Source: Candidatus Hydrogenedentota bacterium
Lineage (GTDB): Bacteria > Hydrogenedentota > Hydrogenedentia > Hydrogenedentales > JAEUWI01
Direction of reading: 5' to 3'
Length of the DNA stretch: 64,000 bases
Assembly: GCA_019637335.1 (NCBI GenBank)
Contig: JAHBVV010000007.1
Span: 1-64,000, forward strand
In this document: positions 13,745 through 53,518 of the stretch, piece by piece
Numbering within the stretch: the first letter of the stretch is position 1
Layout of the letters: every line of letters starts with the position of its first letter
Program-made: the position numbers and the translations under genes
Notes under the pieces: model-generated
What the model was told of the DNA's origin: nothing
What the model saw: only the letters and a program-made list of their open reading frames with translations
Databases searched by the model: none

Positions 13745-13811
13745 GGTCGTCCCAGGTTCCTCTCACATTGGACGCCACGGCCCTGCACCGCGTGGCTATC
13801 CCACCCTTAGC

Positions 13812-13840
13812 ATTATAGGAGCGGCGCGCGGGCGGTTCAA
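13812..13840 (-). promoter_or_regulatory. sigma70-type promoter for the TPR gene
   Basis: On the minus strand TTGAAC (13840-13835) and a perfect TATAAT (13817-13812) are separated by exactly 17 bases. The start would lie about 60 bp before the TPR gene. Confidence 0.65.
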
Positions 13841-13952
13841 ACGCGCCGCGTTGCGGGCCGGGAGCGGAAGGTGTACTATGCGCGCAGGGGCTTCGCGGGG
13901 CGCTACCCGGCGCAATGCGCCCCGGGGCCCGGGCTTGACATGTGGAGCAAGG

Positions 13953-14957: not shown

Positions 14958-15037
14958 CAAATCGAGAGTGCTATGCAATGGGCCGGGCGATCTGGTACAG
15001 TACGGGCGCGCCCGAGGGCCCGGGAGAGGAACGAACC

Positions 15038-15382: not shown

Positions 15383-15476
15383 GGCGCGGTTCGCGCATAC
15401 GTCGAAAGCGGCCGGTGGAGCCGCGGGAAGGCGCGCCTCCGCCCGGGCGCGTTCGGGAAAACAAAGGAGCGCAATC

Positions 15477-15917
15477 ATGGATTTGAGCGGACTGAAGTGG
15501 CCCCTGATCATCGTTGCGATCGTGGGGATTGGCTGGCTCGGAACGAGCGGCGGCATCCAGTGGATGTACGGCAATTTCACGAAGGCGGCCCCCGGCGTGG
15601 ACGTGAACCAGGACATCCGGGACGAGGCGGGGCTGACGAAGCTCGCGGGCTACACGTACTTCCTCTGGAAATGGAAAGAGACCATCGCGATTATCGAGAC
15701 ATCCATGGAGCGGTACGGCGATGGCGCGCCGAACTACTGGTACAACATGGAGCGGCTGAGCAACTGCTACGATCGCATCGGCAACTATAAAATGAGCCTG
15801 GAAATCCTGGAGCTGCTCATGCGCGCCCGGGCCTGGGAAGTCGACCCGCGCGTGCCCAACCGCGAGCAGTTAAACCTGCGCGCGAACACCCTCAAAGAAA
15901 TGCACGAACTGCGTTGA
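15477..15917 (+). CDS. membrane-anchored hypothetical protein with TPR-like tail
   Basis: A 146-residue protein with an N-terminal hydrophobic helix (about 7-22) and a helical remainder resembling a single pair of TPR helices (YNMERLSNCYDRIGNYKMSLEI). A GGAG sits eight bases before the ATG. Its stop overlaps the TTG start of the methyltransferase gene (TTGA), so the two are probably co-translated. Function unknown. Confidence 0.75.
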   Translation: MDLSGLKWPLIIVAIVGIGWLGTSGGIQWMYGNFTKAAPGVDVNQDIRDEAGLTKLAGYTYFLWKWKETIAIIETSMERYGDGAPNYWYNMERLSNCYDRIGNYKMSLEILELLMRARAWEVDPRVPNREQLNLRANTLKEMHELR

Positions 15918-16654
15918 AACACCACCCGCAATCCGACACCGTTTTCGGGCGCATCCCCGTTCTGGAATGCCTCCGAGCCCGGCGCCGCAAGGCGCACGCA
16001 CTGTACCTGCTCGACTCCGGTCGCGACCTCGGCGAAATCCGCCATGCCGCGCGCGGCGTTCCCGTGCACGAGGTTCCCCGCCCGGAACTGGACCGGCTCG
16101 CGGGCGGCGGAACGCATCAGGGGGCGGTGCTGCTGGCGGGCCCCCTCCCCGTCCACCCGCTGAACGAATGGCTCAACCGCCCGCTGGCGGAGGACGCGTT
16201 CATCGTCATACTCGACTGCATCGAGGATCCCCACAACTTCGGCGCAATCGTCCGGTCCGCGGCCGCCTGCGGGGCCGCCGCGGTGCTGTTTGGCAAGGAC
16301 CGAACCGCCCCGCTGAGCCCGGCCGCCCACAAGAGCGCGGCTGGCGCGATGGAGCATATCGATCTCATCCAGGCGCCCAATATCGCGCGGGCGGCGGACC
16401 AACTCAAGAAGCACGGCTTCTGGCTCGCCGCGCTGATGCCCGACAGCCCGCAGAACCTGTGGGACGCCGATCTGCGCGGGCGTATCGCGATCGTCGTGGG
16501 CAACGAGGGGAAGGGCGTGCGGCCCCTGGTGGAAAAACAGTGCGACCTGCGGCTGCGCATCCCCCTCTCCGGCCCCATCACCAGCCTGAACGCGTCGGTG
16601 AGCGCGGCGATCGCGCTGGCGGAATGCGTGCGCCAACGGCACGCGGGTCGGTAG
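15914..16654 (+). CDS. TrmH/SpoU family RNA 2'-O-methyltransferase (RlmB-like)
   Basis: A 246-residue protein with a short N-terminal L30e-like substrate-binding domain (FGRIPVLECL start) and a C-terminal SPOUT knot: motif 1 LDCIEDPHNFGAIVRSA, motif 2 VVGNEGKGVRPLV and motif 3 IPLSGPITSLNASVSAAIAL. These are the signatures of the RlmB/TrmH enzymes that methylate the ribose of 23S rRNA or tRNA using S-adenosylmethionine. The start is TTG, overlapping the previous stop. It converges on the TOPRIM gene with five bases between stops. Confidence 0.93.
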   Translation: MKHHPQSDTVFGRIPVLECLRARRRKAHALYLLDSGRDLGEIRHAARGVPVHEVPRPELDRLAGGGTHQGAVLLAGPLPVHPLNEWLNRPLAEDAFIVILDCIEDPHNFGAIVRSAAACGAAAVLFGKDRTAPLSPAAHKSAAGAMEHIDLIQAPNIARAADQLKKHGFWLAALMPDSPQNLWDADLRGRIAIVVGNEGKGVRPLVEKQCDLRLRIPLSGPITSLNASVSAAIALAECVRQRHAGR

Positions 16655-16659
16655 GCGGG

Positions 16660-17556
16660 CTACCGCGCGCCGCGGACGCGGTTCGCAATCAACTCGTTCA
16701 GTTCCTGAAAATCCGGCGGCTGAGTCGACTTGTCCTGGCGCAACAGGTCCTTGACTACCTCGTTGATTTTGTCCCATCCCTGCAACGCCTGACCCGATTT
16801 CGTCCTGACCTCGAAGAAATTCGAATTCACCAGTTGCGCCAGGAGCTTCTTCCCCCGCAGCATCGCTATCCAGCCGCCCTGGCGCAATTCAAGCCGCTTC
16901 GCTCCCCCGGTCATTTTACAGACCGCCTCCTCGAAACGGCGTTCCAATTCCGCCGCGGATACGGATGATTCGATATCCGAACCTCGCTTCGCGAACTCGG
17001 GGCGCGCCTTCAGTCTTTCGAGCGCACTGTCGTAGGAGTCAAAGCCGCCGGGAGATTTGAACGTGGTTATCCAATTGCGCTTCTGGCTTTCGCGAACCGC
17101 CGTAATGACCCAATTCGCGGCGTCGAAGTACAAGCGGGCCTGCGCGAATTCGAGAAGCGCAGACTCCATATCGGGCGCGGTGGCCTTGCAGTATTCCGAA
17201 CGAGCCAGATATTGGGGATCCAGAAAGTAATTCTCGATTTCCCGGCGCCTCCAAATCAACAGATTGTGGGTATTCGCGTCGGGAAAGTTGACCCAGCTCG
17301 TTTCCACCTCTTCATCGGTATGGTGTGGATCCCGATCGATCAGGAAGTAGTAGTCGGGATGGTGGGGATGAAGCGCCTCGGCGACACTCTTGACATAGTA
17401 GGACGGCCCAAGCGGCTTGATGGTGATGGGCGAGTCGAGGAGCGCACTGAGCGCCCTCACGTCGAAGGAGTCCCCCGGGGCGCCCTCCACAAACAACACA
17501 TGCCGTGCCGCCTGAAGCACATTCTCGGGCGCGCCCCCCTTAACGGCCCGAATCAC
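16660..17556 (-). CDS. DUF4435-like TOPRIM protein (PARIS AriB-like)
   Basis: A 298-residue protein starting at GTG 17556, overlapping the ATPase stop as GTGA. TOPRIM-type residues are visible: HVLFVEGAPGDS (Glu-Gly) near the start and YYFLIDRDPHH (Asp-x-Asp) about 60 residues later. The RRREIENYFLDPQYL segment matches the REIENYLLD element of DUF4435 proteins. In PARIS, an AAA15-type ATPase (AriA) holds and then releases a DUF4435 TOPRIM nuclease (AriB). Gene order and overlap here agree with that. An OLD-like or RloB-like role is the alternative. Confidence 0.75.
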   Translation of the reverse strand: MIRAVKGGAPENVLQAARHVLFVEGAPGDSFDVRALSALLDSPITIKPLGPSYYVKSVAEALHPHHPDYYFLIDRDPHHTDEEVETSWVNFPDANTHNLLIWRRREIENYFLDPQYLARSEYCKATAPDMESALLEFAQARLYFDAANWVITAVRESQKRNWITTFKSPGGFDSYDSALERLKARPEFAKRGSDIESSVSAAELERRFEEAVCKMTGGAKRLELRQGGWIAMLRGKKLLAQLVNSNFFEVRTKSGQALQGWDKINEVVKDLLRQDKSTQPPDFQELNELIANRVRGAR

Positions 17557-20904: not shown

Positions 20905-21115
20905 ACAAGCGCTTTGAAGCGGGCCTTCAGCCCTTCAACGCTTTCGATTCCTTTTTCCTGGGCCGATGGCCCAGGCTGGAATAAAACGGGCCTTTGGCCC
21001 TCAATACAATATCCTCAGCGCCGAAGGCGCGGATCATAGCAGCCTGGGCCACAGGCCCAGGTAAACGGACCAGTATTTCGGCCAGGGCTGAAAGCCCGTA
21101 TCATGGCAGGCTTTC
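20905..21115. repeat. array of triloop hairpins between 20834 and 21243
   Basis: This 410-bp gap holds no gene but at least five clean hairpins with three-base loops: CCTGGGCC/GGCCCAGG at 20957-20975, GGGCC/GGCCC at 20988-21000, GCGCC/GGCGC at 21018-21030, CCTGGGCC/GGCCCAGG at 21043-21061 and GGGCT/AGCCC at 21085-21097. A looser GGGC/GCCC hairpin lies near 20920. The stems differ in sequence but share design, so structure rather than sequence is kept. Similar GCGCC-TTC-GGCGC hairpins recur at 25.3 and 25.4 kb. Confidence 0.8.
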
Positions 21116-30583: not shown

Positions 30584-30686
30584 TGTCCCGAGGTAGGGAA
30601 TTCCAAGAGCGCAGTACCAGCAGCATCCTTTTGTCTTGCGCCGTTGCGAGGGAGGACGTTGGGGAACATCAACCGGGAGAGGAAGC

Positions 30687-31331
30687 ATGGAGATCAATGC
30701 GATTCTGGGCGCGCTTTTGGGCGCGGTGCTGGGGGCGATAGCGTGGGCGGCGGTTGCGGCGGTCACAGGGATGGAATTGGGACTGGTGGCGTGGGGCGTG
30801 GGCGGCCTGGTGGGGTTGGGCGCGTTTGTGCTGGACGGCCGGGGCCTGGCTTCGGGCATCGTGTGCGCCTGCCTGGCGCTGGTGGCGATCGTGGCGGGCA
30901 AGTTCATGGTGATCAACCACTTTGCGAACCAGGAGCTGTCCGCTATCGCGGATATCGGTCTGAGCCAGGAACTCTACAATGAATTGCATACCGACGCGAT
31001 GGATTTCGCGCAGGTGACGTCGGAGGCCGAGTATCCGGCGTTTATGGTGTCCCACGGGTACAGCGAAGCCGAAACGCCGGAGAACGTGTTTGCCTCCGAG
31101 ATCGATTTCTTCAAAGAGGTGAACGTTCCGGATCTTCAGGCGTGGGCCGCGAATCCGCCAACCTACGAGCAGTGGCGTGCGGATTCCACCCAGCGCGCGC
31201 AGGCCTTTGTGATGGAGAACATTCCGCTGACGGAAATCTTCATCGAATCGATTGGCATCATCGATATTGTCTTTTTCGCGCTCGGCATCGGCACGGCGTT
31301 CCGGGTTGGGTCGGGGGGTGAGTTTGAGTAG
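30687..31331 (+). CDS. multi-pass membrane protein of unknown function
   Basis: A 214-residue protein with three or four hydrophobic segments in the first 90 residues (Gly/Ala-rich, for example ALLGAVLGAIAWAAVAAV), a soluble acidic middle of about 100 residues and a last hydrophobic stretch near the end (IIDIVFFALGIGTAF). The pattern resembles small Gly-zipper membrane proteins. GGGAGAGGA precedes the ATG. It may be co-transcribed with the lipoprotein that follows 55 bp later. Confidence 0.75.
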   Translation: MEINAILGALLGAVLGAIAWAAVAAVTGMELGLVAWGVGGLVGLGAFVLDGRGLASGIVCACLALVAIVAGKFMVINHFANQELSAIADIGLSQELYNELHTDAMDFAQVTSEAEYPAFMVSHGYSEAETPENVFASEIDFFKEVNVPDLQAWAANPPTYEQWRADSTQRAQAFVMENIPLTEIFIESIGIIDIVFFALGIGTAFRVGSGGEFE

Positions 31332-32316: not shown

Positions 32317-32799
32317 CTACAGCACGGACTTATCCAGGCTGCGGTATTGCACCGCCTCGGCGACTTGGTGTTCGGTGATGTCTTCTTTGGCTTCGAGGTC
32401 CGCGAGGGTGCGGGCGATGCGGAGTATTTTGTCGTAGGCGCGGGCGCTGAGGCCGAGGGTGTTGAGGGCGCGTTCGAGGAGGGACTTGCTGGCGTCGTTG
32501 AGCTTGCAGTACTGGCGCAGGGTTTTGCTGTCGAGGTGGGCGTTGAAGCGGAAGGCGGCGCCGTTGCTCCGCGCGCGCTGCCGTTCGCGCGCGCCGAGGA
32601 CCTGTTCGCGGACTTCGGCGGTCGTTGGGCCGCTGACCTGGGTGTCGGTCAGTTCGTCGAAACTCAACGCGGGCACGTCCACGTGGATGTCGATGCGGTC
32701 GAGGAGGGGCCCGGAGAGGCGCCCGATGTAGCGCTGTACGTCGGCCGCGCTGCAGCGGCATTCCCGGCGCGGGTCGGTGCGGCAGCCGCAAGGGCATGA
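32317..32799 (-). pseudogene. comM: 3' fragment of comM (Mg-chelatase-like ATPase)
   Basis: About 160 codons encode only the C-terminal third of a ComM/YifB protein: CPCGCRTDPRRECRC, QRYIGRLSGPLLDRIDIHVD, the MCM-like sensor region and the closing AVQYRSLDKSVL. The 5' two thirds, including Walker A and B, are absent. Similarity to ComM stops abruptly at the SCPCG motif near 32797-32800; beyond it the frame reads unrelated residues. The complete comM at 37298-38839 differs clearly in sequence, so this is a different allele and not a local duplication. It marks either an insertion site or an assembly join. Confidence 0.88.
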
Positions 32800-32803
32800 T
32801 TGC
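32797..32803. other. junction: comM break and composition change
   Basis: Left of here the sequence is GC-rich and matches comM; right of here it is not comM and becomes less GC-rich with different codon use. No tRNA or integrase lies at the join. The matching second boundary (5' part of this comM) is not in the window. Confidence 0.7.
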
Positions 32804-32843
32804 GTTGCCTTCGTGCCATCGCAAGCTAAGTGCCTCAAAACCC

Positions 32844-33857
32844 ATGCCTTACGGTTATCCGACCGAGCCAAGAACCGTCGGCGAACACCTCCGTAAGCGC
32901 CGACTGGATCTGCAACTCCTGCAACGCGAAGTTGCGGTTATCATCAGCGTCAACGGGGCTACGATACAGAATTGGGAGACCGGCAGCCACTCCGTATCCC
33001 TTTCGGCATGGCCTGCCGTCCTGGAATTCTTGGGGTACGACCCCCGGCCGTCCGGCCAGACGCTCGGCGAAATGTTACGCCTTCGCCGTGAGAGTCTCGG
33101 CCTGTCCACTGCCGATCTCGCCCGACAGTTGGGCATTGACCCGTCCACCGTCACACGGTATGAACTCAAGCCTGACCACCTGCAAGACCATCTCTCCATA
33201 TCCAAGATAGCGCAATTCCTGGGTCACAATCCGCTCCCCGAGCCGGACTCGCCAAAGGAATATGTCCGGCAGGCGCGATACTTGCTCGGCCTCAGTCAGC
33301 GAGAATTGGCGAACAGGCTGCGCGTATGTACCGACCTCGTCTCCCGATGGGAACGTAACGAGACTTGCCCGACTACCAGACACCTTGACCGCATCGAGGC
33401 GTTGCTTGCTGACTTGACCGAATCGCTCCGGCTGCCATGCGCGGAGCACGTCAGGGCCGTATGCGCCTCGGCGAAACGGCCAGACCGCCGCACCCGGCCG
33501 CGCTCGACTGCCCCGGTCAAATTGGAGAACCTCGGCGACCACATCCGCAAACGGCGGCTGGACCTCGGCCTGAGCCAAGCAGCCTTGGCCAAGCAGTTCG
33601 GCATTAACAGGAACGCTGTCACGAGATGGGAAGCCGGGTTGGATGAGCCGGGGCTTAAACAAATGCCCAAGGCAATCGAATTCTTGGGCTACGACCCAAC
33701 ATCAAGCGACGGTGAACTGGCGTATCAAATCCGGTCCAATCGCCGAGCCTTGGGCCTGTCGCAAGCAGAATTCGGTAAACTTCTCGGCGTAAGCAGGGAG
33801 ACCGTCAATCTCTGGGAGAACGGCAAGCGGGTGCCGGGCGAATCCACCCAAATCTAG
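32844..33857 (+). CDS. protein of five tandem XRE-type HTH domains
   Basis: A 337-residue protein built almost only of Cro/CI-type helix-turn-helix units at about residues 12-67, 73-130, 139-189, 229-286 and 291-331. Units 1 and 4 share GEHLRKRRLDL / GDHIRKRRLDL and end in EFLGYDP, so they are recent copies. Unit 3 is followed by a basic linker. Single-domain relatives with the MPYG...LRKRRLDL start are common in environmental bacteria, but five units in one chain is unusual. It starts 44 bp inside the junction and reads away from it. Likely DNA-binding; target unknown. Confidence 0.8.
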   Translation: MPYGYPTEPRTVGEHLRKRRLDLQLLQREVAVIISVNGATIQNWETGSHSVSLSAWPAVLEFLGYDPRPSGQTLGEMLRLRRESLGLSTADLARQLGIDPSTVTRYELKPDHLQDHLSISKIAQFLGHNPLPEPDSPKEYVRQARYLLGLSQRELANRLRVCTDLVSRWERNETCPTTRHLDRIEALLADLTESLRLPCAEHVRAVCASAKRPDRRTRPRSTAPVKLENLGDHIRKRRLDLGLSQAALAKQFGINRNAVTRWEAGLDEPGLKQMPKAIEFLGYDPTSSDGELAYQIRSNRRALGLSQAEFGKLLGVSRETVNLWENGKRVPGESTQI

Positions 33858-34089: not shown

Positions 34090-34620
34090 ATGAGAGTCCT
34101 CCTTTTGCTATACGGTCTGCCATGTTCAGGGAAAACCACGGTGGCATCGCGACTGGTTCATCACTACGATTTCGTCTATCTAGACATTGAATCAATTTGG
34201 CACAGTACATTTGGCCAACCCGATTTCACCGAAACCCAAAGTGCCGCAGTGTTTGAGACTCTCATACAAGCCATTCGTGACGCAGCAGCACTAAATAAGA
34301 ATATCCTGCTAGAAGGTGTATTCGCGTCGCCAGATCGCCTTTCGACTCTGTCTCAAGTTTGTCGCAATGAAGGGCTGGCTTTCGTAGCAGTTCTTCTGCA
34401 GGTCGATTGGGCGGTTCTGCGCAAACGGATGAGGTCTAGGGCCGCTGCAGGGGGACGACTCACAATCGAACGTGTCAAATGGTTATCGGCGAAATTCTCC
34501 ACTGATCAATTAAGCAGCCTGACAATTGATACTACTAATACGGAACCGCGACTCGTGTTCAATCGAATTGTCCACTTCTTGTCTCATAATCTCTCTCTAT
34601 CTCTGCCGCCAAAGACTTGA
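34090..34620 (+). CDS. P-loop kinase of the zeta-toxin/CPT-like class
   Basis: A 176-residue protein with Walker A LYGLPCSGKTTVASRL near residue 10, a following YLDIESIW, and a lid-type RKRMRSRAAAGGR segment. This is the layout of small AAA_33-type kinases that phosphorylate small molecules, nucleic-acid ends or toxin substrates. Its 3' end overlaps the convergent nucleotidyltransferase gene by 62 bases. No clear Shine-Dalgarno precedes the ATG. Substrate unknown. Confidence 0.8.
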   Translation: MRVLLLLYGLPCSGKTTVASRLVHHYDFVYLDIESIWHSTFGQPDFTETQSAAVFETLIQAIRDAAALNKNILLEGVFASPDRLSTLSQVCRNEGLAFVAVLLQVDWAVLRKRMRSRAAAGGRLTIERVKWLSAKFSTDQLSSLTIDTTNTEPRLVFNRIVHFLSHNLSLSLPPKT

Positions 34621-35365
34621 GATGCATGTCTAGAAGCCCTCGCGCGGGCACTTCATCTGCAAGACGTTGGGACGCTTTCGCCGCCAACCTATGTGCATCC
34701 TTCGTTCCCTCGTATAGCAGACGGCACAGAATGATTCTGCTGAAACATTTGATTTTTGCTTCTACGGAGTCCGAAGCCAAACCCTTTGAAACCAGCGGAC
34801 GCACCCAAGACAGAAATTCCTCCGCATCGATTCTTGGTCGCGGTAGAATCGCGTCCAGCGCTGGTCCTGCAAGACATGAATTCGACTGGAGAAAACCAAG
34901 CGTGTGGAGTGGTAACTCGCGCGAAAAGCAGTGCCAATCCGGAACCGACAACGGCCCACATAGATGCAAGAGTAAAACGTTTTCTGGATTGCTCTGGGAA
35001 TCCAATGGCCCAACTACAAAATTCAGCTTAGGTTGAATTTCGATCAGATCCAGTTGCGCTGATGACACAGCATGCCTGATCATGTGTTCTGTATTAGATG
35101 ATATGGTTGTAAAAACACCGTCCTCAGCTCGTCCCCGCTGGGCACAATCTCTCAATCGAACTATTGAACCGCAATTTGAAGCCTCTTCAGAAGTCAGATC
35201 GGCAAGCAAAATGTCGAGATCATTACTAGTACGCGGACTAGAATTCGAACTCCCTACTTGGTACGCTCCATACATTTCCGAACTCGTACGAAAAACGCGG
35301 CCGATTTCGTGAAGAAGTCGCGAAATGGCTTGAACTCTGCGTTGAGAGATGCTGGCACTGGTCAT
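34559..35365 (-). CDS. polymerase-beta-type nucleotidyltransferase
   Basis: A 268-residue protein with the NTase signature YQVGSSNSSPRTSNDLDILLADL (Gly-Ser and two Asp) near residues 35-55 and a third acidic strand in AQLDLIEI about 65 residues later. The C-terminal half is helical. ATG 35365 overlaps the upstream stop (ATGA). Linked to an O-methyltransferase and near a P-loop kinase, it could modify RNA, a protein or an antibiotic-like compound; the substrate is not evident. Confidence 0.75.
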   Translation of the reverse strand: MTSASISQRRVQAISRLLHEIGRVFRTSSEMYGAYQVGSSNSSPRTSNDLDILLADLTSEEASNCGSIVRLRDCAQRGRAEDGVFTTISSNTEHMIRHAVSSAQLDLIEIQPKLNFVVGPLDSQSNPENVLLLHLCGPLSVPDWHCFSRELPLHTLGFLQSNSCLAGPALDAILPRPRIDAEEFLSWVRPLVSKGLASDSVEAKIKCFSRIILCRLLYEGTKDAHRLAAKASQRLADEVPARGLLDMHLKSLAAEIERDYETRSGQFD

Positions 35366-36006
35366 TTCGAGTTCAACGCTAGAAATAATCCATCTCTGAC
35401 TGGGAGGAGAACTGTCAGAAAATCTCCACCCGAACGAAGGTAGGAATTGAATTCGTGCGTAAGACATTCCCACTCTTTCCTCGGGCGCGTGACATTTCCG
35501 CCAGCTAACGAATTGTCGATGACTAAGATTCCGCCTTGAGCAACAGAACTGCAGATATGCTCGTACCTTCCTTCGTAGTCTTGCTTCCGGCCATCTAAGA
35601 AGATAAGGTCGAACTGCTTGAATTCTTGATTTTTCAACCACTCCACGCCCTCGGCGTGAACAACCTCGATAAGCCCGTGTGAGATAAAGGAGGAAAGGTT
35701 TTTCTGAGCGTTTACGTAGAGATGCTCATCAACCTCAACCGTCGTAATCTTTCCACCGGGTGGCATGGCAGATGCCATCATGGCGGCCGAGAAGCCCGTG
35801 TATGTGCCAATCTCTAGTACCTTTTTGGGTCGCAATATCGTGACCAATAGGCGCAATAGACCTCCGACTATAGGCCCGATCAACATGTGATGATCTTCTT
35901 GTTCAGCTTTCGTGCATGCGAAAATGGAATCCGCTGTGCGTGGCAAAGGCGTCGTCATCGCTATGCAATAGGCGATGATATCGGGAGGAATGTATTCTGG
36001 TTCCAT
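35362..36006 (-). CDS. class I O-methyltransferase (CCoAOMT-like)
   Basis: A 214-residue SAM-dependent methyltransferase with motif I VLEIGTYTGFSAAMMASAM, the acidic TTVEVDEHL, and FDLIFLDGRKQDYEGRYEH, in which the usual DADK is replaced by DGRK. The metal-binding DN pair appears in ILVIDNSLAGG. The family methylates catechols or small metabolites. It is nine bases downstream of the unknown protein and overlaps the nucleotidyltransferase start. Confidence 0.88.
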   Translation of the reverse strand: MEPEYIPPDIIAYCIAMTTPLPRTADSIFACTKAEQEDHHMLIGPIVGGLLRLLVTILRPKKVLEIGTYTGFSAAMMASAMPPGGKITTVEVDEHLYVNAQKNLSSFISHGLIEVVHAEGVEWLKNQEFKQFDLIFLDGRKQDYEGRYEHICSSVAQGGILVIDNSLAGGNVTRPRKEWECLTHEFNSYLRSGGDFLTVLLPVRDGLFLALNSK

Positions 36007-36015
36007 GCGAAAGCC

Positions 36016-37245
36016 TTAGTGTTTGTCAGTGGCATCGAATTCACTCGAAAACGACGAAGGTCTTATGTGTCCATCAGGAACACCTGACCGCTTTAGGAGC
36101 GCAGCCCAAATATGCTCATCGCTACAATCGGAAGTGCTGGAAACTATTATGTTCGATGCGATTCTTAAAAGGTGTCGCCGACCCCGCTTGAACTTAAGCC
36201 ATTGGACGAGTTTCTCGGGCTTGATGTGAGGCACCGGGATTCCCATCACCACCCATTTTTCAATAAAACCCCAACCACGTGGCTGCTCTCTTTCGCCCAA
36301 CAACTGCTCTAAAGTCCTCGACAGCTGCAAACCCTTGGTATGTAAATCTACGCAAAGCGCATCTGCATTCTTAAAAAGACGAGGCCAGCTTGACTTTGCT
36401 CGGGTCGCTCGCATGAGATCTGGACGTAGCTCGAACGCTTTCACAAGAATCTTCTCAGGGTCGCCTCCAGCCGTAACTGCGAGGGAATTGACCAGACGTT
36501 TCAATATTCCTCGATATCCGACTGTATCCACAAGAGATGATTTCTCCCCATTCTGAAGGCCAAGTTCGTTGAGCATGTGCGTCGTAAGCGTATATGCACG
36601 TGCTCGGGATACGGATGGCAAATATGCAATGTCATTATTGGACGCTAGCGACATGTAGACCAACATTCGAACTACTGTACTTAAGAGTTCAGTCGACTCG
36701 GGGGTCCAAGGTTGATTACTCCGCGTCAAGTGTAAGATCTGTTCTCTTAGTTCTGGACGTGACAGAACAAACGCAACAGCTTTAGCCGACATGTCGTCGT
36801 CTGTTCCCAATTCGGTTTCTGGTATGCTTGTACCTTGGACCAGGAGTTCGTGAAACGTCTGATCTGGATTATACTCATTGACAAATTGAGGCACTAGCGT
36901 CGACGCGGGTGACATTGACACCGTTTTCAAATACCCAAGTTCCTTGCTAAGTGTCGAAGCTGCTTGACGACACGCAGTTTCATAAGCTGCGGGATCAATA
37001 TGTAGCCGTCTGATAATCTCGTTCCGCGATGTGCCAAGGCCAAGTTCATTGAACTTACTCGCTATATCTCGTGATATTGGATAGACGGGGCCTTCCTGGG
37101 CCGCAACGTACCATAGGGTATCGACTGACAAAAGCTCACCAATGAGCCGAAGAAAATTGACAACATCATCACCGCTTTTTGCCTCTCGGCAAATACAGCG
37201 GCTTGCTGAATGTAAGTATGTATTGTCAATAATCCGGTTCAGCAT
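36016..37245 (-). CDS. hypothetical protein, mostly helical
   Basis: A 409-residue protein with no motif I recognise. It is rich in predicted helices, has no signal peptide or membrane segment and only scattered Cys (CICREAKSGDD near the start). GGAAGAAGA lies upstream of ATG 37245. It is 52 bp downstream of the complete comM on the same strand and nine bases before the methyltransferase gene, so the three accessory genes probably share a transcript, perhaps with comM. It may supply the scaffold or substrate recognition. Confidence 0.7.
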   Translation of the reverse strand: MLNRIIDNTYLHSASRCICREAKSGDDVVNFLRLIGELLSVDTLWYVAAQEGPVYPISRDIASKFNELGLGTSRNEIIRRLHIDPAAYETACRQAASTLSKELGYLKTVSMSPASTLVPQFVNEYNPDQTFHELLVQGTSIPETELGTDDDMSAKAVAFVLSRPELREQILHLTRSNQPWTPESTELLSTVVRMLVYMSLASNNDIAYLPSVSRARAYTLTTHMLNELGLQNGEKSSLVDTVGYRGILKRLVNSLAVTAGGDPEKILVKAFELRPDLMRATRAKSSWPRLFKNADALCVDLHTKGLQLSRTLEQLLGEREQPRGWGFIEKWVVMGIPVPHIKPEKLVQWLKFKRGRRHLLRIASNIIVSSTSDCSDEHIWAALLKRSGVPDGHIRPSSFSSEFDATDKH

Positions 37246-37297: not shown

Positions 37298-38839
37298 TTA
37301 AACGGTCACTAGTGCTCTGTCTAAAGAACGGTACTGCACCGCCTCCCCGATATGTGACTCCGAAATCGTGTCTGATATAGATAGGTCGGCAATGGTCCGC
37401 GCCACGCGAAGCACCTTGTCGTAGGCGCGGGCGCTGAAGCCAAACTGATCCATCGCGCTTTGGAGGAGTTTCTCGGCTCCCGATTCCATGTTGCACGTTT
37501 CGCGCACGGCTTTAGAGTCCAGGTGAGCGTTGCAGGTAAATCTGCCGTCATATCGTGCTCGTTGCCGGTCTCGCGCCTCCTGCACCTCGGCCCGAACCTC
37601 GGCGCTGGTCGGACCGCTCGGCCGCTTGTCGGAGATTTCATCGTAGCTGAGCGCGGGCACATCGACGTGAATATCGATGCGGTCAAGCAACGGCCCCGAG
37701 AGACGGCTCATGTAGCGCTGAATTTCCCCGATGGAACAGCGACATGGTTTCACCGGATGCGACCGGTATCCACACGGACACGAGTTTAAGGCGACGACAA
37801 GTAAGAATCGTGACGGGAACGTAATCGAGTACATCGCGCGCCTGATGTGGACCATGCCTTCCTCAAGCGGTTGGCGCAGCACTTCCAACGCGCCGCGATT
37901 GAATTCAGGCAGTTCGTCAAGAAACAGCACGCCGTTATGGGCCATGCTCACTTCGCCCGGCATCGGACGCTGGCCATGTCCGCCGCCGCTGATGGCCACC
38001 GTGGTGGCGGTGTGATGCGGCGCACGAAAGGGACGGTGGGTGACCAGTTGTTTTCCTTCGCTGAGCACCCCGGCCACGCTGTAGACCCGCGTGGTCTCCA
38101 GCGCCTCTTCAAAGGTCATATCAGGCAGGATACCGGGCAGCCGGGACGCGAGCATCGTCTTGCCGGTACCGGGCGGGCCGACCATGAGCAGGTTATGGCC
38201 GCCCGCCGCAGCAATGGTCAGGGCACGTTTGACGTGGGCCTGACCTTTCACGTCGCTCAAATCACGGACATGGCTTCGCCTGTTGTGAAAAAGGCCCTCA
38301 ATATCTGTCACGAACGGCTCAACATCAGCCGCACCCGACATGAAAGCTGCCGCATCAGCCAGCGTCTCAACCGGAATGACTTGGATGCCGGGTACCACTC
38401 CGGCTTCCTGGGCGTTGTCCTTGGGAACAAGGATGCCCGAAAGTCCCTGGTCCCGCGCGGCAATCGTCATCGGCAGCGCCCCGGCAACCGGCCTGACCAT
38501 GCCGTTGAGCGCCAACTCGCCGACCACGGAGTATTCCGAAATGCGTCCTTCGCCGATCTGCTCGCTGGCGGCCAGCAGCCCAAGGGCGATGGGCAGGTCC
38601 AGCGCGCTACCTTCCTTGCGGATGTCGGCCGGGGCGAGATTGACCACGGTAACGCCGCGTGGCACGCGATATCCCGAATTGCGGATGGCAGAGTGGACGC
38701 GATCCTGGCTCTCCTTTACGGCCGCATCCGGCAGGCCCACGATGGTGAGCTTGTTCATGCCGGGATAGTTGTCCACCTCGACGGACAGCGGTATGCCGTC
38801 GATCCCGAAGATGGCGCTCGATTGGACCCGCGCTAACAC
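37298..38839 (-). CDS. comM: complete ComM/YifB Mg-chelatase-like AAA+ helicase
   Basis: A 513-residue protein from GTG 38839, matching the usual length of about 510. It starts VLARVQSSAIFGIDG, as the family does, and has a Lon-like S5 domain, then Walker A GPPGTGKTMLASRL, Walker B GVLFLDELPEF, the CPCG motif and the C-terminal MCM-like part. ComM promotes branch migration during natural transformation. An ATG at 38922 would add 28 residues, which the family lacks. It is divergent from the small XRE gene. Its sequence is clearly not that of the broken comM at 32.3 kb. Confidence 0.93.
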   Translation of the reverse strand: MLARVQSSAIFGIDGIPLSVEVDNYPGMNKLTIVGLPDAAVKESQDRVHSAIRNSGYRVPRGVTVVNLAPADIRKEGSALDLPIALGLLAASEQIGEGRISEYSVVGELALNGMVRPVAGALPMTIAARDQGLSGILVPKDNAQEAGVVPGIQVIPVETLADAAAFMSGAADVEPFVTDIEGLFHNRRSHVRDLSDVKGQAHVKRALTIAAAGGHNLLMVGPPGTGKTMLASRLPGILPDMTFEEALETTRVYSVAGVLSEGKQLVTHRPFRAPHHTATTVAISGGGHGQRPMPGEVSMAHNGVLFLDELPEFNRGALEVLRQPLEEGMVHIRRAMYSITFPSRFLLVVALNSCPCGYRSHPVKPCRCSIGEIQRYMSRLSGPLLDRIDIHVDVPALSYDEISDKRPSGPTSAEVRAEVQEARDRQRARYDGRFTCNAHLDSKAVRETCNMESGAEKLLQSAMDQFGFSARAYDKVLRVARTIADLSISDTISESHIGEAVQYRSLDRALVTV

Positions 38840-39182: not shown

Positions 39183-39362
39183 CGATCGAGGAATGCAACA
39201 CGTGTACGTACAATACCAAATATACTTTAGTCTCCTCGCCACGATACGCACTTCGCCGGATGGGAGACCAGGCCTCAAAATGCACCTCTCACCTTTGTGG
39301 CGTGTACAGTCGGATTATCAGAATTATACGTCCGCTCACACGTTTCGGCGGGAGTCCAAACG

Positions 39363-40520
39363 GTGAGTTCCACTGCTTCAAAACTTCGCAAGACATTGCA
39401 TGCCCACCTCACCGGAATTGGCTTCAAAAAAAACTGCAAAGGCTATTACGTCGAAGGGGCGCTGACCAAGGACCGCATTCGTGATCTGCACGCGGCACAG
39501 CGGCAGCAGATTCTAACATCAAACACTCAATTTGTCGAGCAATACTGGGATGAACTGGCAATCCACTTTGCAACTGGGAGGTCCGTGTGTCCGGAAGCAA
39601 TTGAGCCCGAGTTAGTTGAAGTTGCGGCCGACACGTGCGAATCTCGTCTATTTCGACTGGCAAGTCTATTGTGGTCGGTACCCGTGTCTCAAGGGTTTGG
39701 TCGTCGATTGCGATTCTTGGTGCGTGATCGCCAGAACGGCTGTCTCATCGGTATCTTCGCTCTAGGTGATCCGGTCTTCAATTTGTCGGCACGCGATCAG
39801 TGGATCGGCTGGACCCACCAGGATCGGATGGAACGACTGGTACATGTCATGGACGCCTATGTGGTCGGCGCTGTACCACCGTACTCCGGTCTCATCTGCG
39901 GCAAACTCGTCGCGGCCCTCATCGGGAGTAACGAAGTCAAGAAGATGTATGAATCCAAGTATCTCGGCCGTGCCGGAGTCATTAGCGAAAAAGAGAATCG
40001 CGCACGTCTAGTCCTGGTGACGACTACTTCTGCGCTGGGTCGTTCGTCCATGTACAATCGTTTGGCCATTCCGGGGGGACCCCAATTTCTGAGGATTGGA
40101 AAGACAAAGGGTTATGGTCATTTCCATCTTACAGGTGATGTCTTTGGCATGATGAGGGAACTGCTCGAAGAGCTTGACCATCCTTACGCATCGGGACACC
40201 GATTTGGTATGGGTCCCAACTGGAAGATCCGCGTCGCACGGGCAGCTCTGGACGAGATTGGCCTTAATAGCGACGCCATCCTCAAACACGGCATTGAACG
40301 CGAAGTGTACACGGTGCCGCTGGCAGAGAACTGGAAGCAGATTCTGCTGGGCGAACATCAGAACGTGCGTGCTCGCGTCCTACCGGTGTCGGAGATAGCC
40401 GGATATTGCCTTCATCGCTGGATAGTCCCACGAGCATTGCGAGACAAAAGTTACAAGCGGTTTGCGCGGTGCAGAATTCTTGAACGATTGAACCAAAGCG
40501 GTTCCAACAACGGTGGGTGA
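39363..40520 (+). CDS. druA: DruA-like DUF4338 protein
   Basis: A 385-residue protein with the DUF4338 core: RLRFLVRDRQNGCLIGIFALGDPVFNLSARDQWIGW, later VTTTSALGRSSMYNRLAI and a GYGHFHL segment. DUF4338 defines DruA, the marker of type I Druantia anti-phage systems; its activity is not established. GTG 39363 is chosen because GGGAG lies eight bases upstream and the frame before it is unconserved-looking. It heads a plus-strand operon with the large helicase. Confidence 0.88.
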   Translation: MSSTASKLRKTLHAHLTGIGFKKNCKGYYVEGALTKDRIRDLHAAQRQQILTSNTQFVEQYWDELAIHFATGRSVCPEAIEPELVEVAADTCESRLFRLASLLWSVPVSQGFGRRLRFLVRDRQNGCLIGIFALGDPVFNLSARDQWIGWTHQDRMERLVHVMDAYVVGAVPPYSGLICGKLVAALIGSNEVKKMYESKYLGRAGVISEKENRARLVLVTTTSALGRSSMYNRLAIPGGPQFLRIGKTKGYGHFHLTGDVFGMMRELLEELDHPYASGHRFGMGPNWKIRVARAALDEIGLNSDAILKHGIEREVYTVPLAENWKQILLGEHQNVRARVLPVSEIAGYCLHRWIVPRALRDKSYKRFARCRILERLNQSGSNNGG

Positions 40521-40634
40521 ACAAGTGATTCAACAGGCCGTACAACAATGTCATTAGTGGGAGCCATTCTAATACGTTAAACACTTGGACTGGGACACCG
40601 GATTGTGGGCGGGTGTCAGCCTTGGGTGCAGCCA

Positions 40635-43529
40635 ATGACAAGCGACTTGACAACATGGCAGGAACATCTTGAGCATCATTTCGCGGTGCTGCGCGATGTG
40701 CGTGGAAAAGTCGCTCCCGATCAGCCTGTGTTTGCACTCGAACATGGACTAGCGGACCAGCAACTTGACGCACTCTTTGCTGGATTGCGCGGTCACGTCG
40801 CGAACAATTGCCCCTTAGACAGGCATCACTTGGCTTGGGTTGTGTACGCCGCTGAATTTGGTTACATCTACGCTGGCGATGAGTACTGGCAAACATTTGA
40901 GGACAACACCCCCGGCTGGACGCGCTTCGGTGACAGGAATTTTATCCGGCGGTGTTTTGCTGGTTTCCATAGTAAGTATCATGGTGCCAGGCCGACAGGA
41001 GCCTGGGCAAATCATTTTTCCATCATCTGTTGGCCGATCACGCACGCGATTTTGCCGCGTGACATGCAAACATACCTGGCGGAAGTACTCTATAATGTTC
41101 GCCATATCCTGTCGCAAGAAACCCTTGAATCACCCCGCCTATTGGGGGAATTGGTCGCCGCTCACGGCTGGCGGACCTCGTCACGCTTTCAGCAACTTCT
41201 ACAGGAACCATTGTTAGTCGGCCAAATTGCCGCAGCTCTTCTGATGGAGGAAGATAATGATTCGCGAGCACTGATATTGCCTGATACGCTCGCCCGCATC
41301 AGTGGCGACCTTGCCAAGGAACAACGCTCCCGCAATTGGCTGCGCAGCGCCAGGGAGATAGCGCGAGACAAAATCGCCTTTCATCGCCTTGGTAAGCGTG
41401 CAGGCAGGGGTATTGGACAATCTCCAGAAGCTACGCCGAATCGCCAGGGGGGCGGATCCCATGTGATGAGTCTGGAACCGCGTATCAGCTTGCGACAGGC
41501 GAGCAACAATACGTGGGACGTTTTTCTCGAACTGCCCGACTTATCCAGCTTGGGATACCGGTACCCCAAGTTCCTGGAGATTCTGACGAACACCCGCTTT
41601 TCCGTTGTGGGATCATCGGGCCGCCACTGGCCGGCTGTCCGTCTCCTTCACTCAAGACAACAAGTTCAATTGAGAAAATGGCCCGAAGCAGCCGAGAGCT
41701 TGATTTGTCTGGAGCGATCGGCACCTGAACTTGAGTACTTACTGGCAACCGAGTGCGCTCAACGCCCCGACGCGATGTGGGCATTCAAGATTGCATCTGA
41801 TGGATCAGCCGGAGAGGTCAGCCGCACCTTCATACGGCCTGATTGCCAGTATATCGTTGTGTGTACCGACGGCCGCGAGATTCCGTGCAATGATCTTTTC
41901 ACGCGGGTGAAGATTTCTTGTGAGGGCATTTGGGCTGTCAGAATTGATGTACCTCCGGTTATTGACGCACAACTGGCAGCAGACCTGCGTTATCTGGAAA
42001 TTAGCTATTCACGGACAACACACGTCTGGCCGGTTGGATTGATACCCTCACGTTGGGACGGCGAGGGGCGCGCCGAGTGGCTGACTACCGATCATGCCTG
42101 TATCGCCCTCCGCGCCGATCATTCAGTGGAAGGTTTTCGTCTGGCTTTGGAGGACGTGACGCTGGATGTGGTACCAGATGATCCCGGTGCGCCGGTGTTT
42201 GTCCAGATTCCCGAACTCGACGTAGGGACTCACCATCTGTATATTTCGGAGATCACTAACGGTGAAAGCAACACGCGCAAGTCCGAAGTTCTTGAAATCC
42301 GGATTCGGAATCCTCGCCCGCCTTCGTCTGGCATCGGTGTCGATGGAGCATTTCTTGTACTGATGGACCCGGCGCAACCGTCACTGGAACAGTTGTGGCA
42401 AGGCAACCTGAATTTGGAAGTACTCGGTCCGCCTACCCGTCAGGTAACCTTTTCCATTCGGTTGTATCGCAAGAGCGATCATCGCCCCATCCTTCAAAAG
42501 GATCTACCGCCAGTGGACCTTCCGTTGCGAGTGAACCTCTGGCGTGACCACTTCTTCCGCCATTTTTGCGAAAAGTCCGATGTTCAAAACGCCTATGACG
42601 TTGCCCACATGTGCGAGGTTAGAATCAGTGCCCGCGAATTGGGTGTCTATCGGTTTCAGGCGGAGCGCGAGTTCACGGCGTTGCGTTGGATTGTTCATCG
42701 TTCGCGAGATCAATACCGCCTCGAACTGCTTGATGACCGAGATACAGCGACGCAACCAGAAGTCTTGTTTTATCCGGTTGAAACTCCAGATTGCAACGAA
42801 ATGATTGGAATCGACGTACTGTCGCGAACAGCCAGTCAGACGGCCCGACCTGGGCTGTACGTTGCACGAGCGGATGAACTGGAACGTTGCGTGATAATAC
42901 CTCCACTGATCCGGACGCTTGGAGATTTGGCGGTGCATCACACCTTGAGACGCTATAGTCGCAATGTATCAGATATCAAAGTGACTGTATGCTTGGCGAT
43001 GCGATGGAAATCTGCTCGGGTCACTGGAGACATTTTCTCGATCAGAATTCAGAGAATTGTGGTTGAGAGTCTCTTTCGCCAAACTCTCTGTCTGGTATGT
43101 GGCGAGCGATGGGCACAATTGGAACGCGAGTTAGTGACTGATCGTGTCGCAGATCCCTTGAATCTAGCGTGTCGAACCGTCAATAGCCGTGCCGAGCGGG
43201 AGTTGCTCAATAGCATCGCCACTCGGATTGACGACCAGTGTCTTGAAGAAACCGCAGACCCTATTGGTGTGTTAGCGGTTCTCAGCCAGCGTCACCTCCA
43301 CCTTCCGGCACCACAGTTTGATGGCGGAACCGTAGTTGACAACTCTCTGCGAGTGGCAGCGGCTTTCGCGCTTTACCTGGCTTCATATGGCGCGATCTCA
43401 TCGGAATTGCCGGAGGGTTCAATTGACAAATATATCGCCTACCTTATGGATGCGCCCGGTGTGCTCCGAGCAGCAAGATTCATGGAATTATATCGCTCCA
43501 GGGTCGCTCCAACCACGGCATTAGCTTAA
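40635..43529 (+). CDS. large protein of the Druantia-like operon, domain unknown
   Basis: A 964-residue protein. The first 160 residues are helical and aromatic-rich (WVVYAAEFGYIYAGDEYWQTF). From about residue 280 it becomes strand-rich with Ig-like features, and the last 120 residues are helical again. I see no nuclease, ATPase or methylase motif. Its place between DruA and DruE-like genes is that of DruB/DruC in type I Druantia, and it might be one or a fusion of both. ATG 40635 is preferred to GTG 40605. Confidence 0.75.
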   Translation: MTSDLTTWQEHLEHHFAVLRDVRGKVAPDQPVFALEHGLADQQLDALFAGLRGHVANNCPLDRHHLAWVVYAAEFGYIYAGDEYWQTFEDNTPGWTRFGDRNFIRRCFAGFHSKYHGARPTGAWANHFSIICWPITHAILPRDMQTYLAEVLYNVRHILSQETLESPRLLGELVAAHGWRTSSRFQQLLQEPLLVGQIAAALLMEEDNDSRALILPDTLARISGDLAKEQRSRNWLRSAREIARDKIAFHRLGKRAGRGIGQSPEATPNRQGGGSHVMSLEPRISLRQASNNTWDVFLELPDLSSLGYRYPKFLEILTNTRFSVVGSSGRHWPAVRLLHSRQQVQLRKWPEAAESLICLERSAPELEYLLATECAQRPDAMWAFKIASDGSAGEVSRTFIRPDCQYIVVCTDGREIPCNDLFTRVKISCEGIWAVRIDVPPVIDAQLAADLRYLEISYSRTTHVWPVGLIPSRWDGEGRAEWLTTDHACIALRADHSVEGFRLALEDVTLDVVPDDPGAPVFVQIPELDVGTHHLYISEITNGESNTRKSEVLEIRIRNPRPPSSGIGVDGAFLVLMDPAQPSLEQLWQGNLNLEVLGPPTRQVTFSIRLYRKSDHRPILQKDLPPVDLPLRVNLWRDHFFRHFCEKSDVQNAYDVAHMCEVRISARELGVYRFQAEREFTALRWIVHRSRDQYRLELLDDRDTATQPEVLFYPVETPDCNEMIGIDVLSRTASQTARPGLYVARADELERCVIIPPLIRTLGDLAVHHTLRRYSRNVSDIKVTVCLAMRWKSARVTGDIFSIRIQRIVVESLFRQTLCLVCGERWAQLERELVTDRVADPLNLACRTVNSRAERELLNSIATRIDDQCLEETADPIGVLAVLSQRHLHLPAPQFDGGTVVDNSLRVAAAFALYLASYGAISSELPEGSIDKYIAYLMDAPGVLRAARFMELYRSRVAPTTALA

Positions 43530-43557
43530 AGACTATACGAGGCAAAGTGACATAGTG

Positions 43558-44631
43558 ATGAAAGTCGTATCGATTGCCGAGATCCATCGCCGCTCTGTAG
43601 AAAGCCTCCGACTTGATGCGGACGCACTTGACCTTACATCGGTGGAGGTTGTCGCCGCGACTATCCGTCGGGCTGCAAGCTTCTATTGTCCTTGCCCGAT
43701 GCGAACCTTGGGAAGTGTGGTGGTGGGAGCACATCGCGGCATCATCGATGATAGCGAAGCGTTCGCTCGCACTGTGGACGATACGATTGAGAGTCTTGTT
43801 GCGTACGGAGATCTTCTCGAACTGGAAGAACCAGATTTAGATGATGCGGCTGTCCGGGGCAGGACGCTTCTGTACTGCGCTCCGCCCTGTTGTGTCCCAC
43901 GGCTGACCGGGAGCCTACTTCTACTGGGAATATCGGCGGATGGAGTGTCGTCCCTGCCGAATGATCTTGAGGCGAGCATCGAATACTCGGGGCATTCTCG
44001 CATTCTGCAAACCACAAACGGCGATGATCTTGAGCGGCTGAAGGAACTCGGTTTTCTGGAACTCTCTATGGACGCCTGGCTTCGATCACCCGCCAAAGGG
44101 TCTCCGGAACAATTCTTGGTTTCGATCAATGAGCAATTGAGAACCGTCAGTGCCGCCGGAGAGATCGCAGCTTTGCGTATCATAAATCCAGATTCCAATG
44201 TTGACTTCTACCGGGGCCGATGGGTTGAGCCGACTAACGAGTGCGGCAAGTTTGTCGGACGAAGGCCCCAGTTGTACGGAGCGGACATCTGGTGCTACGT
44301 GGAGTTGAAGGATGGGCAGCCCCTGCAGTTGATTGACTTGCCATTGGCCCGAAGTAAATGGCGAGGCTGTGACGATGCCTGGTTGATTCAGTTGGCACTT
44401 GACGCTGTTCGCGGCAACCCCCAAAAATACCTTGTACGCCGCGGCCCTCCCGGGACAACGATAGTTGACTTCTTCTCGCCGCTTCCCATGTGGGCCAAAC
44501 GGCGACTGGATGCGATGGGTGAAACGGTTCCGCCTATGCGAAGCCTGTTTTCGTATAAATTCAGGGATGACGAACTGGCTGAGGAGGCCGACTTTTTGCA
44601 GAAACGGCTTTGGCTGGCACCGGCTTGCTGA
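43558..44631 (+). CDS. hypothetical protein of the Druantia-like operon
   Basis: A 357-residue protein with no recognised domain. It contains a Cys pair in FYCPCPMRTLG and CAPPCCVPR, is acidic in the middle and holds VDFFSPLPMWAKRRLDAMG near the end. Position before the large helicase suggests the DruD slot of type I Druantia. The intergenic distance to the next start is 31 bp. It may bridge the helicase and the 964-residue protein. Confidence 0.7.
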   Translation: MKVVSIAEIHRRSVESLRLDADALDLTSVEVVAATIRRAASFYCPCPMRTLGSVVVGAHRGIIDDSEAFARTVDDTIESLVAYGDLLELEEPDLDDAAVRGRTLLYCAPPCCVPRLTGSLLLLGISADGVSSLPNDLEASIEYSGHSRILQTTNGDDLERLKELGFLELSMDAWLRSPAKGSPEQFLVSINEQLRTVSAAGEIAALRIINPDSNVDFYRGRWVEPTNECGKFVGRRPQLYGADIWCYVELKDGQPLQLIDLPLARSKWRGCDDAWLIQLALDAVRGNPQKYLVRRGPPGTTIVDFFSPLPMWAKRRLDAMGETVPPMRSLFSYKFRDDELAEEADFLQKRLWLAPAC

Positions 44632-44662
44632 GGGCCTAACATTCCAAGACAGGAGTTGAACC

Positions 44663-47600
44663 GTGGCACTGACGATTGGGGAAACAGTTGAGCAACTTCA
44701 CGCGGCCCTGCGCGATTATATCGAAGCCACGTATCACATTGGCCACCCATCGCTGGTCGAACAGAGACGGCAGTTACTTCAGCAACCAGGCGTAATCTCT
44801 CAACGTCCGTATATTGAGAGTACACCACGGTACAGGATTGGCGAGCCGTTTGAGAATCTTGGCCTGCCAACTCCTGTTCTCGATGTATTCAGCTCGTTGG
44901 CAACCGCTTCAGACGGACCGATCTTGATCCACAATCCGCCCTATCACCACCAGGCCAAAGCCATTCAGAAATCCTTGCTGGAAAACCGGAGTCTGGTTAT
45001 AACAACAGGTACGGGTTCCGGTAAGACGGAGTGTTTTCTTCTTCCGATTCTTGGGAAATTGGCGCAAGAAGCTCATGAACAGGGTCGGGCTTTTGGCAGC
45101 ATGGCGGCAACCCGCGCGCTTGTCCTTTATCCCATGAACGCTTTGGTAAACGATCAACTTGGGCGACTACGCGTTCTGTTCGGAGATGATCGCATCGTGG
45201 ACCAGTTTGTTGACTGGTCGGGCCGACCGGCGCGCTTCGCTCGCTACACAAGTCGAACGCTTTATCCGGGTGTCAGGACTGTTGATAAGGATCAGTTGCG
45301 GCTGAAAGCCATCGGTGACTTTTATGTACGATATTTAGAACTTGCACAGGGGCCAGATTCCGAGGAGCAACGAGCCGCCAAACGTATCGTGGACCAACTC
45401 AAGACTCGTGGTAAATGGCCAGCAAAGCCGGACCTACTGGCTTGGTATGGACGCAAGGGTATGCGTTGGCAGGATACCAAAACTGGAGAGTTTAAGCGTT
45501 GTGTGACGCTTGCCAACGATCCAGAACTTCTGACGCGTCACGAGGTTCAAGAAACTCCGCCAGACATACTTGTCACGAACTATTCAATGCTTGAGTACAT
45601 GCTCATGCGGCCAATAGAACGACCCATCTTTGACCATACCCGAGACTGGCTAGAACAGAATCCCCACGAGCGTCTTCTGTTGGTTCTGGATGAAGCCCAT
45701 CTCTACCGCGGCGCAGCTGGCGCTGAGGTCGCGCTCTTGATCCGTCGGTTGCGGGCGCGACTCAATATCCCGCAGGATCGACTGCAGGTCATTTGTACTA
45801 GCGCCAGCTTCTGTGACCCTGCTTATGCGTCGCAATTCGGTGCTCAATTGACTGGTAAAGACCGCCGCGAATTCGAAACAATCGAGGGTGAACTCGCTCT
45901 CAGTGAAGCGGCTGGAAAGGGAAGTTCTCGCGATGCCGCCGTGCTCGCTGATTTGGATCTCGATAGCTTCTATTCCGGTGAAACTGATGAATCGCGCGTG
46001 GCGGCGGTTCAGTCCCTGCTTGACTACCGAGCCGTCAATCCCAAAAGTGACCTTCCCTCCACGCTCCATAGTGCCTTGAATGAGTTCCCGCCAATGGGGG
46101 AACTCATTAACCTAACCATGAAGGCAGCTGAACCCGTTTCCGAGTTGCACGGCAAGATTTTTCCCGACGCTGAGCCGGAAGCGGCAAACAGGGCAGTTAC
46201 GGCTCTGGTGGCTATGGGAAGTCTTGCACGAAAGACATCCAACACACCGGGTTTGTTGCCTTGCCGTGTTCACGGTTTCTTTCGAGGTCTAGCGGGACTC
46301 TGGGTCTGCATGGACCCCGGATGTAGCGCGTTGCCGGAACACCGCCGCGATGGCCCTTGTGGCAGGCTCTACAGCCAGCCGCGTGATATCTGCACTTGTG
46401 GATCTCGGGTGCTCGAACTCTACACCTGCCGCAATTGCGGAGCGGCATATGCCCGCGCATACACTAACAATATTCTTGAACCTGATTTCCTATGGGCGGA
46501 GCCCGGTGGCGAGTTTCGCACCCACACCGGTATGTTTGGTGAACTAGAACCTCTGGACATGCTTCTCGATGCGCCAGTGCGCAATGACATCGAGCCAGCC
46601 GATTACGACCTGATCACTGGACGGCTAAACCCAGGAGCTTTGGGAACCCGATCTCGTCGAGTGTTCTTACGGGGGGAACGTATTTCAGCAGGAGATGGTG
46701 ATGTGGACACCGGCCACACCGCGCAACGGGGTGAGTTTGTACCTTGTGCGGTATGCGGTGAATCTGCGGCGTATGGTCGGTCCTCTGTACAAGACCATCA
46801 GACCAAAGGCGATGAGCCATTTCAGGCACTCATTAGTAAACAGATTCAGGTACAGCCGCCAAACGCTACGCCTCCAACGCGCCTCGCCCCCCATCGCGGA
46901 CGAAAAGTCTTAATCTTTTCCGATTCTCGTCAGACGGCTGCACGCCTCGCCCCAAATCTTCAAACCTATTCGACAAGGGATGTCTTACGGCCGCTGATCG
47001 TGGTTGGCTTTGATCGCTTGCAGCGGTCGGCCAGTCTCGCTACATTCCTTTCGCTTGAAGATCTTTACCTAGCGGCACTCATTGCTGCCGAACTTCTGGG
47101 CGTGAGACTCAGACCCGAACTTAAGGGCGGTGAGAGTTTTCATGCGCGAGATAAAATCGAGGAAAGACTAGGTGCCGGCGCGTTGTTCGATGATAATCGC
47201 ATGCTTGAACTGTTAATGGAAATGCGCGGTGAAACTCCACCGCAGTTTTTGCTTCGGGGTATGGCATCATGCCTTACCCACCGATACTACAGCTTGGAAT
47301 CATTCGCGCTTGCATCGATTGTTGAACGCGCCTCGCACCGTGAAGCAATCTCCGATCTGCCCGACATCCCAGAAGTGGCGACGACCCCAGAGCAGAAACT
47401 AGCGCTGGCGCGTTTGTGGTTACGAAGCTGGCATCGATCCGGGTTCTGGCTCAGCCGGATGCCATCATCCTGGTGGATGAATGAAGTGAAACCGCACTCC
47501 GGCAAATTCGCAACAATAGAGAATTGGCTTGACACCAAAGATGCCCGGAAACTGTTTAACCGCGATTGGCTGGAAGCTCTCCTGCACCGTTTTACGGAAC

Positions 47601-53507: not shown

Positions 53508-53518
53508 AGTGATGTGGG

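Follow-up and report, generated by a model that had tools for sequence, protein, structure and literature searches.

The window analysed here is a stretch of 64,000 nucleotides at the start of contig C7 (245,209 bp) in the genome of a Candidatus Hydrogenedentota bacterium (G000; 7.16 Mb in 55 contigs, completeness 96, contamination 0.7). The initial annotation had described a comM gene broken at about 32.8 kb, and the C-terminal part of the native gene does lie at 32,320-32,794 on the reverse strand, with its 5' part missing directly to its right. This 3' stub shows 87% amino acid identity to the comM of a congener (G001) and 59% to a second, intact comM, the match covering residues 379-540, and the gene adjoining it (30,636-31,331) is also found downstream of comM in the congener. 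A search of the genome with the second comM as query, to look for the missing part beyond 64 kb as had been suggested, gave a match at C7:90,375-91,484; the native 5' stub occupies C7:90,411-91,484, on the same contig and strand as the 3' stub and 57.6 kb rightward. The location of both parts on one contig therefore points to an insertion, and the element whose left end had been supposed here, with a length above 31 kb, measures 57,614 bp (C7:32,795-90,410) between identical CA cores. Elsewhere in the window, positions 21,017-21,061 (reverse strand) match the Acido-Lenti-1 RNA family (Rfam RF01687, 41.7 bits).

As the other possibility, it had been proposed that the contig is a chimera of two organisms with its joint at 32.8 kb, and the composition of the DNA is what speaks for it. 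The sampled genome has about 65% G+C and the region from ~34 to ~70 kb of C7 has 48-57%, parts of 80-90 kb being lower too; a comparison of k-mer composition, also suggested earlier, showed that tetranucleotide frequencies inside the shifted stretch correlate with those of the remaining genome at ~0.2-0.3, down from ~0.75, while the flanks are host-like. The composition boundary that had been reported is real in this sense but less abrupt at 32.8 kb than described, as the element's first ORF (32,796-33,857) still has 60% G+C. Against a chimera, the 5' half of comM lies on the same contig, host composition resumes from 90 kb of C7 onward, both native stubs group with congeners, in the 5' half as in the 3' half, and the junctions are conserved att half-sites that recur in other phyla. 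These paired junctions refute a chimera unless both were misassembled, which leaves it very improbable, and the broken comM is confirmed as a real insertion.

Each end of the element carries a characteristic gene. A large serine recombinase (LSR; C7:88,694-90,436) with a Resolvase domain (PF00239, E=2.5e-33) and a Recombinase domain (PF07508, E=1.3e-20) abuts the 5' stub, and its catalytic and recombinase domains are intact in the integrated element. At the opposite end, an ORF with five stretches of XRE-type helix-turn-helix (32,796-33,857, forward strand; Pfam HTH_3, E=8.9e-47) abuts the 3' stub. The interior, as assigned by domain or profile matches, begins with an AAA_33 kinase-like protein, an O-methyltransferase and unknown ORFs (34,090-37,245), followed by the intact comM and by Druantia-type genes on the forward strand (39,297-51,468) comprising DruA, an unmatched 974-aa protein, DruD and DruE together with a PD-(D/E)XK nuclease. 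DruA, DruD1 and DruE1 of Druantia type I match strongly; no match was obtained for the 974-aa protein that separates DruA from DruD. Further right, the stretch 53,007-57,911 encodes two neighbouring serine recombinases that do not resemble the comM integrase, together with a RuvC-like protein and an ORF of unknown function; the two recombinases, beside the RuvC-like gene, possibly mark a second, nested element. On the reverse strand at 59,437-61,237 an unknown small protein, a caspase-like protease and a ThsB-type TIR protein are encoded, the protease and the TIR gene adjoining each other and possibly representing a Thoeris-like defence variant. A LexA-like (S24) repressor (61,522-62,187, reverse strand) has a relative beside an LSR at another locus, L058 (40% identity over 210 aa), and a 2355-aa ORF starts at 62,859 on the forward strand and extends past the end of the window at 64,000. 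Beyond the window, VirD4/HerA-like ATPases form a module at C7:70,008-74,933; no relaxase, which an ICE or IME would need (an ICE with mating-pair genes as well), was seen among the scanned element proteins, and several large ORFs had no match.

Common to the two junctions is a dinucleotide, TG when read along comM and CA on the forward strand, which lies within the conserved NPCPCG codons of the gene. The left core, at 32,795-32,796 on the forward strand, has its partner at C7:90,409-90,410 and is conserved in other genomes; the comM strand has AATCCC-TG at the junction with the 5' stub and TG-CCCTTGCGG at that with the 3' stub. The left comM fragment had been said to end exactly at SCPCG, and it does end there, but homology to the native gene stops at the core TG and the Ser codon is element DNA, proline being found at that position in 28 of 30 distinct intact sites surveyed. 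Next to the core, the left attP arm TGATTGCGTTGCC... (32,797-32,815, forward strand) contains a GGCAACGC motif whose spacing from the core is constant at every XRE-side junction. With small variations, alignment of the junctions gives GGCAACGC[A/G]nnnn-TG for the XRE ends and TG-nnGTTG.. for the LSR ends, so that attP forms an inverted repeat centred on the core; its arms, GGCAACGCAA ... TGCGTTGCC, recur across genomes and, with the 2-bp core, make up the layout expected of an LSR element. A search for this attP pattern found none in viral contigs and, among the loci fetched, found it at L058 only, where GGGCAACGCAACGTCATCCCTGCGTTGCA directly links an LSR with an XRE frame; this natural attP has the predicted layout and is the only LSR-XRE one of normal type, its XRE part being degenerate. 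Within the LSR gene lies a comM-like inverted repeat of 22 nt that encodes IRRANYT there and was ascribed to chance.

Taken together, the arrangement of recombinase, core and arms indicates that the element is inserted by its LSR at a 2-bp core in comM, presumably through attP x attB recombination at TG that would have put the whole 57,614 bp into the host gene as a site-specific integrative element. That comM is an LSR target was already known, and this part is not new. The AbaR islands to which the break had been likened interrupt the same gene, but the likeness does not extend to the machinery, which is Tn7-like in Tn6022/AbaR. A Tn7-like insertion of that kind has the identical target gene in its favour; it is opposed by the LSR at the element end, by a scan of the element proteins that found no Tns or Tni proteins, by junctions that share merely 2 bp instead of the target-site duplication of Tn7-like elements, and by a different position within comM, so that its probability is practically negligible.

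Relatives of the LSR with 46-64% identity occur in bins named Acidobacteriaceae, Eisenbacteria, Ignavibacteria, Bacteroidetes and others, and several of them, from other phyla, have the LSR directly next to a piece of comM that is broken at the identical residue. Matches at E<=1e-100 were obtained in 8/395, 4/396 and 6/47 genomes of the phyla of G072, G068 and G069, respectively; within the host's own phylum (68 genomes) G000 alone passed 1e-60. In a second set of genomes, a comM 5' fragment ending at this site was present in 13 of the 15 that have the LSR, giving 21 split genomes when G000 and seven other genomes are included. Most of the related genomes are metagenome bins. A 1038-aa VirD4/HerA-like protein and its neighbours are common to elements in several phyla, the 1038-aa protein itself being 40-54% identical over its length. 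The element belongs to a family that spans phyla and whose members have the LSR and an XRE gene at opposite ends, in many cases with a VirD4/HerA-like ATPase module between them. Searches of viral contigs with the spare comM and the LSR as queries found no relatives, and a plasmid collection contained only recombinases below 60% identity.

Several other loci bear on the choice of target. In the congener, comM is itself split at the Walker A region by a different LSR element of ~10.5 kb (L048, G001:C1:130001-150000, at 5188-17298), and comM has therefore been hit at two sites within one genus. At L129 (G073:C14:8001-28000) comM is hit twice, by this LSR family at NPCPCG and by a distant LSR element ~60-80 codons upstream, and at L061 (10,004-12,392) an LSR relative (53%) ends at the DNA-uptake gene dprA (Pfam DNA_processg_A, E=4.6e-77). 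A possible recombination signal in the congener comM (99% amino acid identity over 136 residues) proved to be just the conserved AAA region, 84% identical at the DNA level, and G018, considered as a further split comM, yielded weak fragments only.

When the ends of the G000 element are joined at the core, the reconstructed circle contains a single ORF of 925 codons in which the LSR is followed by the five XRE helix-turn-helix domains. The element of G072 (45,496 bp), joined likewise, has an open stretch of 641 residues with two XRE domains, and the fusion is thus in frame in both of the complete elements that were joined, which come from different phyla. The phase at the core is identical in 13/13 LSR ends of normal polarity, and in that phase the XRE frame is open for 122-353 codons at 14/14 XRE ends, counts that exclude members of reversed polarity and, for the latter, a decayed G041 end (C606a) that closes after 16 codons. 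Past the core the residues xALPFCxxxLxxxKP are conserved, most XRE ends have no start codon at the core, and beyond the att arm differences fall on codon positions 1, 2 and 3 in the numbers 695, 581 and 908, a coding-like pattern. Reversed polarity, with the LSR beside the 3' part of comM or the XRE gene beside its 5' part, is seen in G204 (L233/L234), G887 (L235/L236), G332 (L237) and on C7 of G076 (L127); in G204 the LSR frame seems to enter comM codons.

The ends, the core and the attP arms are read directly from the sequence, as is the continuous LSR-XRE frame once the circle is reconstructed; the fusion protein would be made only from that circular form. To judge from the reconstructed circles and the phases of the ends, the integrase frame crosses attP and is interrupted by integration, so that the enzyme disrupts its own gene; it differs from the archaeal suicidal type, a tyrosine recombinase that loses catalytic integrity, in being a serine enzyme whose domains stay intact. 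On integration the enzyme would lose the XRE tail, gain a handful of comM-derived codons in its place and be of ordinary LSR size, and its form would thereby report the integration state of the element. For the tail itself, the most likely role is that of a directionality or control domain, in which the circle would yield the fusion and the fusion would favour integration, and the integrated element would yield the LSR and a separate XRE protein. Serine integrases are widely used, and their reversal usually requires a separate directionality factor; an integrase gene edited by its own integration would, if true, be a simple switch.

The frame could also be of no consequence. In an ordinary LSR island, the LSR and XRE genes would be separate, attP would overlap the 3' end of the former and the 5' end of the latter, and the arms would impose the shared frame. 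The attP arms do encode part of both ends, and a constraint on the DNA could therefore fix the phase; comM is a known LSR target, some XRE ends (G000, G070 and two in G041) have an ATG at the core, and G076 has one LSR-XRE junction that is not in frame. Such an island does not readily account for an XRE frame that is open from the core and conserved past the arms at every one of the 14 ends, most of them lacking a start codon there, nor for the coding-like variation among codon positions, and we regard it as rather unlikely.

The second comM, which had been reported as a full copy of another lineage close to the break, is indeed complete and lies 4.5 kb to the right of it (37,298-38,839, reverse strand; 513 aa; TIGR00368, E=1.5e-178). 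It shares 68% amino acid identity with the native 5' part and 59% with the native 3' part, and in the tree it branches not with the host genus but with the comM of G005, G059, G057 and G046, another lineage of the same phylum. Compared with G059, pN is 0.14 and pS 0.62. Its own att site (37,660-37,790) reads NSCPCG, with Ser for Pro, and has AACTCGTG instead of AAYCCNTG; among the 30 sites, the sole other one without proline is that of G059, and the Ser might shield this copy from integration. In G059 (L145, ~6830-7105) a decayed LSR of this family has its att arm joined to a different gene, with an intact comM ~0.6 kb off. As this remnant ends in a different gene, G059 was not counted as a second case of an element-borne comM.

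Stubs of comM accumulate in some of the related genomes. Three 3' stubs, each abutting an XRE end, are found on two contigs in G069, where the two that share a contig have a surface-protein gene between them; G041 has three stubs at XRE ends, and a single contig of G887 bears two, the first at an XRE end and the second at the LSR. These arrays lie partly on separate contigs, and within each of the three genomes the stubs differ mutually by ~13-28% and are therefore not fresh copies. The simplest reading of the arrays is that element-borne comM genes were later hit by other elements, which would leave stubs at element ends. A spare comM would restore ComM after the native gene has been cut, and in related elements such a copy would offer a landing site for the next element and so lead to nested arrays; we infer that the copy replaces the cut gene and that others like it have served as later landing sites. 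The spare copy bears on why elements attack comM at all, as the element returns an intact copy of the gene that it splits.

Nearly even odds, a little below one in two, must be granted to the view that the second comM is plain cargo or a chance passenger that replaces nothing, the loss of comM being neutral in these hosts. A full comM is absent from 19 of the 21 split genomes (G000 and G070 being the two that have one), and four complete elements (G072, G250, G471 and G204) have no comM inside, so that its carriage is occasional and not a trait of the family. On the other side, the spare gene is intact, with pN well below pS, it sits near the XRE end in the same orientation, and the comM stubs that border elements in G069, G041 and G887 suggest that the gene has been carried repeatedly. 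Overall, an element inserted by its LSR, with an LSR-XRE fusion expressed from the circle and a spare comM acting as replacement and landing site, appears to be the best explanation, with a probability of about 0.7. More tentatively, and with the balance tipped slightly against it, the fuller proposal would be a cross-phylum family with a self-editing serine integrase, in which the fusion runs through attP, integration cuts the tail and direction is set by the enzyme's form; some members would in addition bring a replacement comM that preserves the recombination helicase of the host and becomes the next site, and so gives rise to nesting.

Elements that disrupt comM are known from several groups. 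Mg-chelatase/comM is the target of 12.4% of predicted site-specific LSRs, and competence genes are enriched among the targets (Durrant et al. 2022, PMC10083194). Those elements resemble the present one in the LSR, the comM target and the disruption of the target gene, and the passages of that paper on them contain no attP inside an LSR-XRE frame, element-borne comM or nested comM arrays. Tn6022 and Tsy also insert in comM (PMC10293859), and comM-interrupting elements of Acinetobacter often carry resistance or defence genes (PMC11472951); an Acinetobacter study suggests that loss of ComM helps elements to persist, yet the present element supplies an intact gene. All of these split comM, but Tn6022/AbaR is Tn7-like, Tsy uses a tyrosine recombinase and their target is at the Walker B region, whereas here an LSR acts at NPCPCG (PMC10293859, PMC11472951). 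No LSR-HTH version was found in the literature searched, with most subscription papers outside its reach, and the design may be new. Integrases split by their own integration are described in a review (PMC8371274) as found only in archaea, among tyrosine recombinases of the SSV, pTN3 and pT26-2 types. These suicidal integrases likewise have attP within the integrase frame and are split by integration, but the split breaks the archaeal enzyme, whereas the serine LSR stays whole and loses a DNA-binding tail (PMC8371274). In the integration-dependent immunity of mycobacteriophage BPs, attP lies in the repressor gene, whose product loses 33 residues (PMC4557955). BPs and the present element thus share an attP inside a gene and a product shortened at its C-terminus by integration, and they differ in that the phage places attP in its repressor gene, whereas here it is the integrase itself that is fused to the HTH domains (PMC4557955).
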